Shown one piece after another: positions 21,255 through 64,000 of a stretch of DNA of 64,000 nt (position 1 is its first letter; each line of letters opens with the position of its first letter). The notes beneath the pieces were generated by a model, which was not told where the DNA came from, searched no databases, and worked only from the letters and a program-made list of their open reading frames with translations. The stretch spans positions 744,001 to 808,000 of the forward strand of contig NC_014654.1 in NCBI RefSeq assembly GCF_000166415.1, in the 5' to 3' direction. The stretch comes from Halanaerobium hydrogeniformans. Its GTDB lineage: Bacteria; Bacillota; Halanaerobiia; Halanaerobiales; Halanaerobiaceae. The translations under genes and the position numbers were made by a program.

Positions 21255-21287
21255 GAATAATCAAGATAATAATTTTTAGATTAATTT

Positions 21288-21444
21288 TACTCCTCATCCT
21301 GGCTTTAGCACTATATGACGTAGATTAAAAATCAATCAGCTGCATTGGGTAGGCCTTATTCCGACCGTACCTGTTATACCCATTGGCGTCTCTGGACGTT
21401 TTTGGGCAGCAGCCTATATTCATATAGGAGCCTCACCTAACAAG
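21288..21444 (-). promoter_or_regulatory. M-box (ykoK) magnesium riboswitch
   Basis: The minus strand carries the M-box signature blocks in order: GTTAGGTGAGGCTCCTATAT, AGGCTGCTGCC, AAACGTCCAGAGACGCCAAT, GGGTATAACAGGTA and a 3' AGCCAGGATGAGGAG. It lies between the promoter and terminator of mgtE, the standard target. The 457-bp gap 21127-21583 is fully explained by this leader and its promoter apart from about 80 AT-rich bases. Confidence 0.95.
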
Positions 21445-21462
21445 TAATATTTATTTTTTTTA

Positions 21463-61580: not shown

Positions 61581-61783
61581 ATTATCATCCCCTTTAAGAA
61601 TATATTCACGATAAAGTAAATTTTTCCTTTTTTTATTTAATTTATAAGTAAATATTTAACTTTTATGATTAATTTTGTTACAGATATCAATAAAGCTTTA
61701 GATAAGCTGAGAAAACAGGAATAATAATTAGCTTTCAAAACATTTTTTAAAGAACAAAAAAGATTTATTTTATTAGTGAAAAC

Positions 61784-61812
61784 TTGAACAAAGTCTAATT
61801 TTAGTGTATAAT
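61784..61812 (+). promoter_or_regulatory. Promoter of hydrogenase-maturation operon
   Basis: TTGAAC, 17-base spacer, TATAAT. The 430-bp gap 61581-62010 is otherwise occupied by a 200-base AT-rich stretch with nothing seen and by the leader RNA below. Confidence 0.85.
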
Positions 61813-61819
61813 TAACTCA

Positions 61820-61980
61820 AATTTAATATTTGAGCTGCCGGGTTAGTTAAATTTTACTAAGCTGTCTCCAAGGATATAATAATTAAGCACTTCCTGAATT
61901 TAAGGGGTTTAGCCTAAAAATCAGGGGAGGGGATCTTTTTATGCCTAATTTTACCCTGCCTATTTTTGGCAGGTTTTTTG
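61820..61980 (+). ncRNA. Structured leader RNA upstream of hyd maturation genes
   Basis: About 160 bases from the expected transcription start to a terminator. It has a 5' hairpin (CTCAAAT/ATTTGAG), GGGTTAG able to pair with CTAA-TTTTA-CCC, GTCTCC able to pair with GGGGAT, and a CCTGA/TCAGG hairpin. The 3' strand of the outer helix overlaps the terminator's 5' arm, the layout of an attenuating riboswitch. I match it to no known class; a free sRNA such as 6S RNA is an alternative. Confidence 0.55.
61955..61980 (+). terminator. Leader terminator of hyd operon
   Basis: CCTGCC, TATTTTT, GGCAGG followed by TTTTTT, 30 bases before the first ATG of the operon. Confidence 0.85.
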
Positions 61981-62010
61981 TTTTTAAAATATTTTTATGA
62001 GGTGAATTTA

Positions 62011-62280
62011 ATGAAAAAAAGAATTGGTGTTGTTGGTATTGTAGTAGAACAGCGAGAAAAGGTAGGGGACAGGATTAATAGTATTTTAAGCAAACATGTT
62101 GAAATTATTATTGGTAGGATGGGTATTCCTTCTGCAGAACATAATTTATCGATGATTTCTTTAATTGTAGAAGGTACTCCAGATGAGATCGGTGCTCTTA
62201 CCGGTCAATTGGGTAATCTTAAAGGTGTAAATTTAAAATCAGCCTTAACTTCTGTAGAAATAGAAGAGGAAGGAGAATAA
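62011..62280 (+). CDS. TM1266-type ACT-domain protein of hydrogenase system
   Basis: 89-residue ACT-like protein of the TM1266/iron-only hydrogenase system regulator family. RIGVVGIVVEQREKVGDRIN and VEIIIGRMGIPSAEHNLSMI are family segments. ATG 62011 has GAGGTG 7-8 bases upstream; an upstream in-frame extension lies within the terminator. Its stop adjoins the hydG ATG. A regulatory or sensing role in hydrogenase assembly is assumed in the family but not proven. Confidence 0.88.
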   Translation: MKKRIGVVGIVVEQREKVGDRINSILSKHVEIIIGRMGIPSAEHNLSMISLIVEGTPDEIGALTGQLGNLKGVNLKSALTSVEIEEEGE

Positions 62281-63732
62281 ATGAGTAAGCAGATAAATTA
62301 TTTTAAAGAGGATTTTGGTGAAGATTATAGAACAGAAGTCTGTGATTATATAACAGACGGTAAAATAGAGTCAATATTAGATTCTGCTAAAAAGCCTGAC
62401 AAAAAAGAAATTGAAAGAATTATTGCTAAAGCTTTAAAAATAAATGGAATTACCCCCCAGGAAGCAGCAGCTTTACTGCAGGTTGAAGATGAAGAGATGA
62501 TCAATCAATTTTTAAATGCAGCCAAAAAGGTCAAAGAGAAAATTTATGGTAAACGACTTGTTATCTTTGCCCCTTTATATTTTGCCAATCAATGTGTTAA
62601 TGACTGTCTTTACTGTGGTTTCAGAAAAGGGAATAAGGATATAGCAAGAAAAAAATTAAGTCAAAAAGAGATTATAAATGAAGTTGAAGCTTTAGAAAGA
62701 GAAGGCCATAAAAGGCTTTTGGTTTTAACCGGTGAGGCACCAAATACAGATTTAGACTATGTAGTTGAAAGTATTAAAACTGCCTATTCTGTAAAAACTG
62801 AAAATGGAGGAGAAATAAGAAGAATTAATGCTGAAATTGCTCCTTTAAGTACAGAGGACTTCAAAAAATTAAAAGAATCAGAGATTGGAACCTATACCTG
62901 TTTTCAGGAAACATATAATAGAAAGGCTTATGCTGAGCTTCATCCATCTGGCCCCAAAAGTAATTTTGAATGGAGGCTTTCAGTGATGGATAGGGCCCAA
63001 GAAGCCGGAATTGATGATCTCGGAATTGGAGCTTTATTTGGTCTCTATGATTATAAATTTGATGTAATCGGCCTGCTCTTACATGCAGAATATCTTGACA
63101 AAAAATATGGAGTTGGTCCCCATACTATTTCGGTTCCCCGCTTAAATCCTGCCAGTGGTAGTCCTTTAACTGAAGTTCCGTATCCGCTTTCTGATGCTGA
63201 TTTTCGCAAACTGGTAGCTGTGTTAAGACTGGCAGTTCCTTATACAGGCATGATTTTAAGCACCAGAGAAAGCACTGAAATGAGAAATGAGCTCTTTGCC
63301 CATGGTGTTTCTCAGATAAGTGCTGGTTCAAGAACAACTCCAGGTGGTTATGAAAAAAAAGAAAAAAACAAAGAAGAACTGGCCCAGTTTTCACTCCATG
63401 ATTTAAGGCCTATTGATGAGATAATTACCGGTATAGCCAAAGATGGTTATATACCTAGTTTTTGTACTGCCTGTTACAGATTAGGAAGAACAGGAAAGGA
63501 CTTTATGGATCTGGCTAAACCTGGTAAAATCCAGGAATTTTGCCGTCCTAATGCAATGTTGACCTTTAAAGAATATCTTGAAGATTATGGAACGGAAAGC
63601 AGCATCAATCATGGAACTCAGTGTATAAGTAATCTAATGGAAGAACTGAAAAAAGATAATTCTAAATTAGCAGCAAATATTGCTCAAAAACTTGAGGCGA
63701 TTGCTGATGGTGAACATGACCTTTACCTATAA
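62281..63732 (+). CDS. hydG: [FeFe]-hydrogenase maturase HydG
   Basis: Radical-SAM tyrosine lyase, 483 residues, making the CO and CN- ligands of the H-cluster. The N-terminal [4Fe-4S]/SAM site is CVNDCLYC, and the C-terminal auxiliary cluster is CTACYRLGRTGKDFMDLAKP with a third Cys 22 residues after the pair (QEFC). TYTCFQETY and HTISVPRLNPASGSPL are HydG blocks. It lies between the TM1266-type gene and hydE. HydF and the hydrogenase are not in the window. Confidence 0.96.
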   Translation: MSKQINYFKEDFGEDYRTEVCDYITDGKIESILDSAKKPDKKEIERIIAKALKINGITPQEAAALLQVEDEEMINQFLNAAKKVKEKIYGKRLVIFAPLYFANQCVNDCLYCGFRKGNKDIARKKLSQKEIINEVEALEREGHKRLLVLTGEAPNTDLDYVVESIKTAYSVKTENGGEIRRINAEIAPLSTEDFKKLKESEIGTYTCFQETYNRKAYAELHPSGPKSNFEWRLSVMDRAQEAGIDDLGIGALFGLYDYKFDVIGLLLHAEYLDKKYGVGPHTISVPRLNPASGSPLTEVPYPLSDADFRKLVAVLRLAVPYTGMILSTRESTEMRNELFAHGVSQISAGSRTTPGGYEKKEKNKEELAQFSLHDLRPIDEIITGIAKDGYIPSFCTACYRLGRTGKDFMDLAKPGKIQEFCRPNAMLTFKEYLEDYGTESSINHGTQCISNLMEELKKDNSKLAANIAQKLEAIADGEHDLYL

Positions 63733-63750: not shown

Positions 63751-64000
63751 ATGAAAAATAAAAAAATAAAAGAGCTGGTTGATAAAGCAGCTGCTGAAGC
63801 TAATTTAAGTAAAAAAGAAATAATATATTTATTAGAACAGGATTTTTCTAAACTTGATTATTTAATAAAAAAAGCTGATCAAAAACGCAAAGAATTATTT
63901 GGAGATGAAGTCCATTTAAGAGCTATCATAGAAATTTCTAGTTACTGCAAACAAAACTGCCATTATTGTGGGCTTCGCAAAGACAACAGTGAGTTAGAGC
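63751..64000 (+). CDS. hydE: [FeFe]-hydrogenase maturase HydE, 3' end beyond window
   Basis: First 83 codons of a radical-SAM protein. After a helical N-terminus with ELVDKAAAEANLSKKEIIYL the radical-SAM motif appears as SYCKQNCHYCGLRKDN (Cx3Cx2C). Position right after hydG (GAGGTGTTGTA site) identifies it as HydE, the maturase that with HydG and HydF builds the H-cluster. Partial because the window ends. Confidence 0.9.
   Translation, partial: MKNKKIKELVDKAAAEANLSKKEIIYLLEQDFSKLDYLIKKADQKRKELFGDEVHLRAIIEISSYCKQNCHYCGLRKDNSELE

Follow-up and report, generated by a model that had tools for sequence, protein, structure and literature searches.

A conserved leader RNA of [FeFe]-hydrogenase maturation genes and a candidate protein reader

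Is there an RNA layer in the control of the genes that mature [FeFe]-hydrogenases, and, if so, what reads it? In the open-licence literature that we searched, we found no RNA-level account of how H-cluster assembly is matched to hydrogenase demand. The question is raised near the end of our window, the 64,000-nucleotide stretch of DNA analyzed here, which spans positions 744001 to 808000 of a single-contig 2.61-Mb Halanaerobium genome. A promoter on the forward strand (61784 to 61812; −35 box TTGAAC at 61784 to 61789, a 17-nt spacer, and −10 box TATAAT at 61807 to 61812) is followed on the same strand by a leader and then by three genes: a TM1266 family putative regulator (62011 to 62280; TIGR03959, E = 2.4e-30; PF21699; PF08753, NikR_C), NikR_C-like and without a DNA-binding domain; hydG, the H-cluster radical SAM maturase (62281 to 63732; TIGR03955, E = 2.1e-165); and the 5′ part of hydE (63751 to 64000; top match TIGR03956), which continues beyond the window edge. 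The Shine-Dalgarno sequence GAGGTG and the ATG of TM1266 can be read from the sequence at 61999 to 62013 (forward strand), and the encoded protein is 94% identical to TM1266 of Halanaerobium polyolivorans. A preliminary description of this DNA had named both the perfectly spaced promoter and the order TM1266-type gene, hydG, hydE behind the leader; the promoter is where it was said to be, and the profile matches uphold the gene order.

Taken by itself, the window makes a weak case. Promoter-like sites are frequent in it, and TTGAAC-17-TATAAT alone lies within chance. The leader folded on its own (61819 to 62010) has a z-score of −0.32 against shuffled sequence, so that single-sequence folding finds no more structure than in the shuffles, and a terminator scan of the region returned 1 terminator-like hairpin versus 0.7 in shuffles. 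The promoter, fold, and terminator of the window alone are not beyond chance. The pairing-rich leader of about 160 bases put forward in the preliminary description consequently fails as an excess of pairing in the lone fold and stands as a fold conserved among relatives, and it is because of that conservation that we accept the leader RNA as real.

Leaders of TM1266-hydG operons were gathered from relatives via HydG searches and aligned from promoter to terminator. The window leader recurs across Halanaerobium, across its order, and beyond, and the −10 box is kept in every aligned leader. RNAalifold, given no structure beforehand, predicted two domains, the stem-loops P1 and P2, and found compensatory change at 9 pairs. 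The P2 core hairpin (61887 to 61934, forward strand), identified by our covariance models R1, R2, and R3 and by covariation, is the sole strong copy in the window's genome, and the minimum free energy fold of this segment is the consensus fold. Over 60 members the P2 consensus reads CCU-GA-NNNN-AA-GGG..loop..CCU-GA-NNNN-AA-GGG, a nearly two-fold symmetric arrangement in which the 2x2 internal loop 5′-CUGA-3′/5′-AAGG-3′ occurs twice, flanking a freely covarying 4-bp helix. In this alignment 91% of cells are paired, versus 76% in controls, and 96 cells are changed on both sides of a pair, versus 28.5 in shuffled alignments and never more than 31 with the register slid; because the sequences had been aligned to fit the structure, we put the weight on the shuffled and slid controls and on the independent RNAalifold prediction. 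The conservation and covariation among relatives on which the preliminary description had let its proposal hang are both present.

P1 (AUUUGA ... AAGGAU; 61828 to 61875, forward strand) is a single stem that covaries in the RNAalifold alignment and holds a third copy of the CUGA/AAGG loop. Its 4-bp helix varies by species as UCAG/CUGA, UCGA/UCGA, GUGA/UCAC, GUAG/UUAC, GGGG/CCCC, ACAG/CUGU, and GCAG/CUGC, and a P1-like element lies 5′ of P2 in 15 of 51 leaders outside the seed, versus 1.4 in shuffles. Judged from its letters, the window copy is a worn member of the motif, among the most worn: its P1 helix is GCUG/CUCC, with two of four pairs mismatched where congeners covary, and one nearly invariant CUGA is replaced by CUAA. 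The window P1 may be decaying or shifted. Elsewhere P2 modules occur in tandem within a single leader (L069 [= L083], L174, and L177), which suggests cooperative or multisite reading.

Does this RNA belong to a family already known? Neither the window leader nor diverse members of the motif matched any family in Rfam 15 at the gathering score, nor did a credible match appear at permissive thresholds, the families covered including 6S, T-box, Moco, NiCo, SAM, TPP, c-di-GMP, and M-box. The earlier remark that the leader fits no known riboswitch consensus is upheld by this search, and the leader is identified as neither a 6S RNA nor a T-box. Rfam does recognize two other elements in the window, both on the reverse strand: an M-box (magnesium) riboswitch at 21283 to 21451 (156 bits) and a fluoride (crcB) riboswitch at 2901 to 2967. 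The motif is undescribed in the open-licence literature and the catalogues of candidate structured RNAs that were searched, the main 2017 catalogue lying outside that scope.

How far the motif reaches, and before which genes, was followed with three successive covariance models whose E-values are approximate. R1, built from P2 alone in 16 TM1266 leaders and run on 101 genomes, gave matches outside its seed at E < 1e-3 (an approximate threshold) before hydF-aspA (L067, L068, and L069), before TM1266-hydF-hydE-hydG (L070), and between TM1266 and hydG (L071); the remaining ones were more leaders of the seed-type operon. R2, with 22 sequences, was run on 398 genomes of the phylum and added leaders of hydE (L113, L118, L119, and L123), hydF (L114), and TM1266-aspA (L115). 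R3, with 60 sequences and the same 398-genome sample, found matches in 80 genomes from 51 genera, and in 74 of the 80 the motif precedes maturation genes or an ECF transporter gene. The 89 matches listed for R3 comprise 49 before TM1266, 29 before hydE, hydF, or hydG, 4 before an ECF S-component gene, and 7 elsewhere; one of the 29 lies at a contig end and was assigned by near-identity. When only matches outside the training set and not before TM1266 are considered (n = 33), 22 precede hydE, hydF, or hydG, 4 the ECF S-component gene, and 7 nothing relevant. Orientation is equally consistent: the listed matches in 60 leaders of 500 nt are all sense except one, a second, weak match in L162 (approximate E = 0.3), and a pattern scan by full enumeration of 83 TM1266 leaders found 27 sense hits, 0 antisense, and 0.03 in shuffles.

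Some matches were counted as false. Weak matches at G000:67706 and in G007, where one of four copies was examined, fall at the ends of IS3-like insertion sequences, and those in L112, L116, L117, L120, L121, L122, and L061, together with the R3 matches in G330, G069, G007:1127528, and G352, lie in or next to unrelated open reading frames (ORFs). A further R3 match (L248; G205:C16:90865-90904) precedes an unrecognized 185-codon ORF and lies outside any sense ORF.

Ammonia-lyases are reported to act in making the bridging ligand of the H-cluster, and the presence of aspA among the targets fits such a role (PMC11736057). The ECF S-component gene (PF12822), lies directly 3′ of the motif in L233, L236, L240, and L242, all from one family, and its substrate could hint at the signal; in these four loci the motif sits just past the end of a trpS-like ORF. 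On these comparative data, a leader RNA that is new, conserved, covarying, and dedicated to the genes of [FeFe]-hydrogenase maturation is strongly supported. The candidate new riboswitch of the preliminary description survives as such a leader, with the strict small-molecule sense of the word left aside.

Could control at the promoter suffice without the RNA? A Rex-like operator, TAGTGAAAACTTGAACAA (61774 to 61791, forward strand), overlaps the −35 box and agrees with 11 of the 14 specified positions of the Rex consensus TTGTGAANNNNTTCACAA (PMC6391272); its 3/14 mismatches are within chance in the window, and the sites in L014 and L016 differ, by inspection, at 1/14. Sixteen leaders of TM1266 or hydF operons share the core GTGAA..TTG.AC without change, among them hydF leaders that lack the RNA, such as that of the window's own genome (G000:C1:920418; L085). 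Before this last gene, some congeners (L068 and L069) retain the motif. In Caldicellulosiruptor bescii, Rex binding is reported 5′ of the homologous CopG(TM1266)-HydG unit, and deletion of rex did not derepress that operon (log2 of about −0.2) (PMC6391272). We regard Rex control of the promoter as probable, and the lack of a rise in the C. bescii deletion would accommodate another layer of control, for which the leader RNA is one candidate. The conserved Rex-like site across the −35 box and the binding in C. bescii (PMC6391272) would suit an account in which Rex is the sole regulation and the leader an ordinary constitutive or transcription-coupled attenuator. We consider that account very unlikely, for it leaves unexplained a conserved, covarying, gene-specific RNA before hydE, hydF, and hydG in many genomes, and the same C. 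bescii operon was not derepressed when rex was deleted (PMC6391272).

If the RNA is a switch, which state turns the genes off? The leader carries an intrinsic terminator, CCTGCCtatttttGGCAGG followed by TTTTTT (61955 to 61980, forward strand), whose hairpin at 61955 to 61973 is the only terminator-like one of the region. Terminators lie 3′ of P2 in 38 of 66 leaders, versus 5.8 in shuffles, while several Halanaerobium leaders have no clear one. In the Halanaerobium leaders L004, L005, L007, L008, and L010 the terminator position is taken by a long palindromic sequence (such as GGTACCAGGTACAAAAAGGCC...) that the window does not contain. Folds of the growing transcript predict that the P2 3′ strand (61926 to 61931, forward strand) pairs as an antiterminator with the terminator 5′ arm (about 61954 to 61960) when the transcript ends after that arm, and that P2 plus terminator wins once the terminator is fully transcribed. 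Across loci, the P2 3′ strand is more complementary to its own terminator 5′ arm than to those of others, a modest effect (cross-locus permutation P = 0.025) that is striking in L070, L148, L176, and L199. The preliminary description, which had an outer helix compete with the terminator, was right in kind; the competing element is the P2 3′ strand, set against the terminator 5′ arm. A second platform appears in the ECF S-component leaders L233, L236, L240, and L242, where the Shine-Dalgarno sequence lies within the P2 3′ strand AAGGGGG, and in the hydG leaders L238 and L256, where that strand overlaps or directly adjoins it. Wherever the platform is legible, P2 frees the terminator or buries the Shine-Dalgarno sequence, and on that ground formation of P2 is rather likely to turn the genes off. 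Of the features of riboswitches, those seen are thus a structured, covarying 5′ leader and a terminator/antiterminator platform, with modest antiterminator pairing, or a Shine-Dalgarno platform.

What, then, would hold P2 in place? TM1266 is encoded in all 74 of the 74 genomes of the 398-genome sample that carry the motif in a sensible context. Among HydG-encoding genomes, 73 of the 180 with TM1266 carry the motif and 0 of the 32 without it do (Fisher p = 4e-7); once genomes with the motif before TM1266 are removed, the counts are 28 of 135 and 0 of 32 (p = 0.003), neither test being corrected for phylogeny and the models having been trained mostly on TM1266 leaders. No motif is detectable in 107 of the 180 genomes with HydG and TM1266, which implies either that TM1266 has another role there or that the RNA has diverged. 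TM1266 is curated as a "putative regulator," has a NikR_C-like domain as its sole domain, and is a homologue of the known structure 2nzc; a conservation comparison found no residues of the protein that separate motif-bearing from motif-lacking genomes, and the open-licence literature searched yielded no paper on TM1266 function. We hold the chance that TM1266 binds the motif RNA to be about even.

A leader read by a protein is at least as likely as a small-molecule riboswitch, and it is favored by the association with TM1266, by the repeated near-symmetric loop modules, and by the standing of TM1266 as an orphan regulator. A TM1266-read leader is our first choice and a direct riboswitch a close second. 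As a riboswitch, P2 (with P1) would bind an H-cluster-related small molecule or ion, such as iron, tyrosine, SAM, or a cluster precursor, and switch the genes off without any protein. Conserved unpaired GA and AA, covarying helices, varied platforms, and tandem copies are all typical of riboswitches, and the ECF S-component target would suit a transported ligand. Yet the motif is absent from all 32 HydG-encoding genomes without TM1266, its short core of repeated identical loops would be unusual as a metabolite pocket, and no one metabolite obviously accounts for repressing both maturases and a transporter; we rate this reading as possible but distinctly short of even. The repeated loop modules would suit binding by some other protein, for example a general RNA-binding protein, or reading by a regulatory RNA. 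No alternative candidate is tied to these operons, however, and TM1266 is the obvious partner; we consider a reader other than TM1266 very unlikely.

The TM1266-read leader, which as a whole is our best explanation of the sequence data and which we give an even prospect, would work as a cis-acting attenuator that tunes TM1266, hydE, hydF, hydG, and the aspA gene downstream of hydF. Transcription would begin at a promoter on which the redox regulator Rex probably acts as repressor, and the nascent leader would fold an optional P1 and then P2. With P2 held formed, its 3′ strand AAGGGG would be unavailable as antiterminator and the terminator would form; in other genomes the same strand would be the Shine-Dalgarno sequence, buried in the formed P2. 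TM1266, perhaps with a co-ligand, would most likely be what stabilizes P2, acting on its own mRNA and on other maturation mRNAs. If P2 formed means genes off on either platform, a feedback loop is to be expected. It is also conceivable, with a likelihood just under even, that TM1266, NikR-C/ACT-like and without a DNA-binding part, founds a family of RNA-binding regulators for the repeated CUGA/AAGG loops of maturation leaders, signaling to termination and translation the status of H-cluster assembly, or that of a precursor (for example iron or tyrosine).

A dedicated leader RNA in dozens of genera, with matches in 51 genera of the sample, would give the maturation pathway a feedback switch of its own and assign the TM1266 family a role. 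Mutations in P2 would offer a concrete handle by which hydrogen producers could be made to mature more hydrogenase. Were TM1266 the reader, a metal-regulator fold would have been converted to an RNA-binding one.

Among known systems, Moco/Wco riboswitches have been reported upstream of some hydrogenase genes, not HydEFG (PMC9481103); they share with our motif an RNA element tied to hydrogenase genes, but they are a different family, and the leader has no Moco match at permissive thresholds. The Rex regulon of Clostridia (PMC6391272) has in common with this locus an operator-like palindrome over the −35 box of TM1266-hydG, whereas Rex works at the DNA level and leaves the conserved RNA farther downstream unexplained. 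Attenuating and translation-blocking riboswitches are similar in their aptamer-like 5′ core, swappable terminator or Shine-Dalgarno platforms, tandem copies, and service to one pathway; our motif departs from the known ones in its want of an Rfam match, its near-symmetric CUGA/AAGG repeats, and its confinement to TM1266 genomes. TRAP, PyrR, and ribosomal-protein leaders are autogenous protein-binding leaders, and although we know of no RNA binding by TM1266, the maturation leaders resemble them in a small regulator as first gene, in alternative structures, and in repeated modules, with the difference that the fold of TM1266 is related to the NikR C-terminal domain (PF08753).
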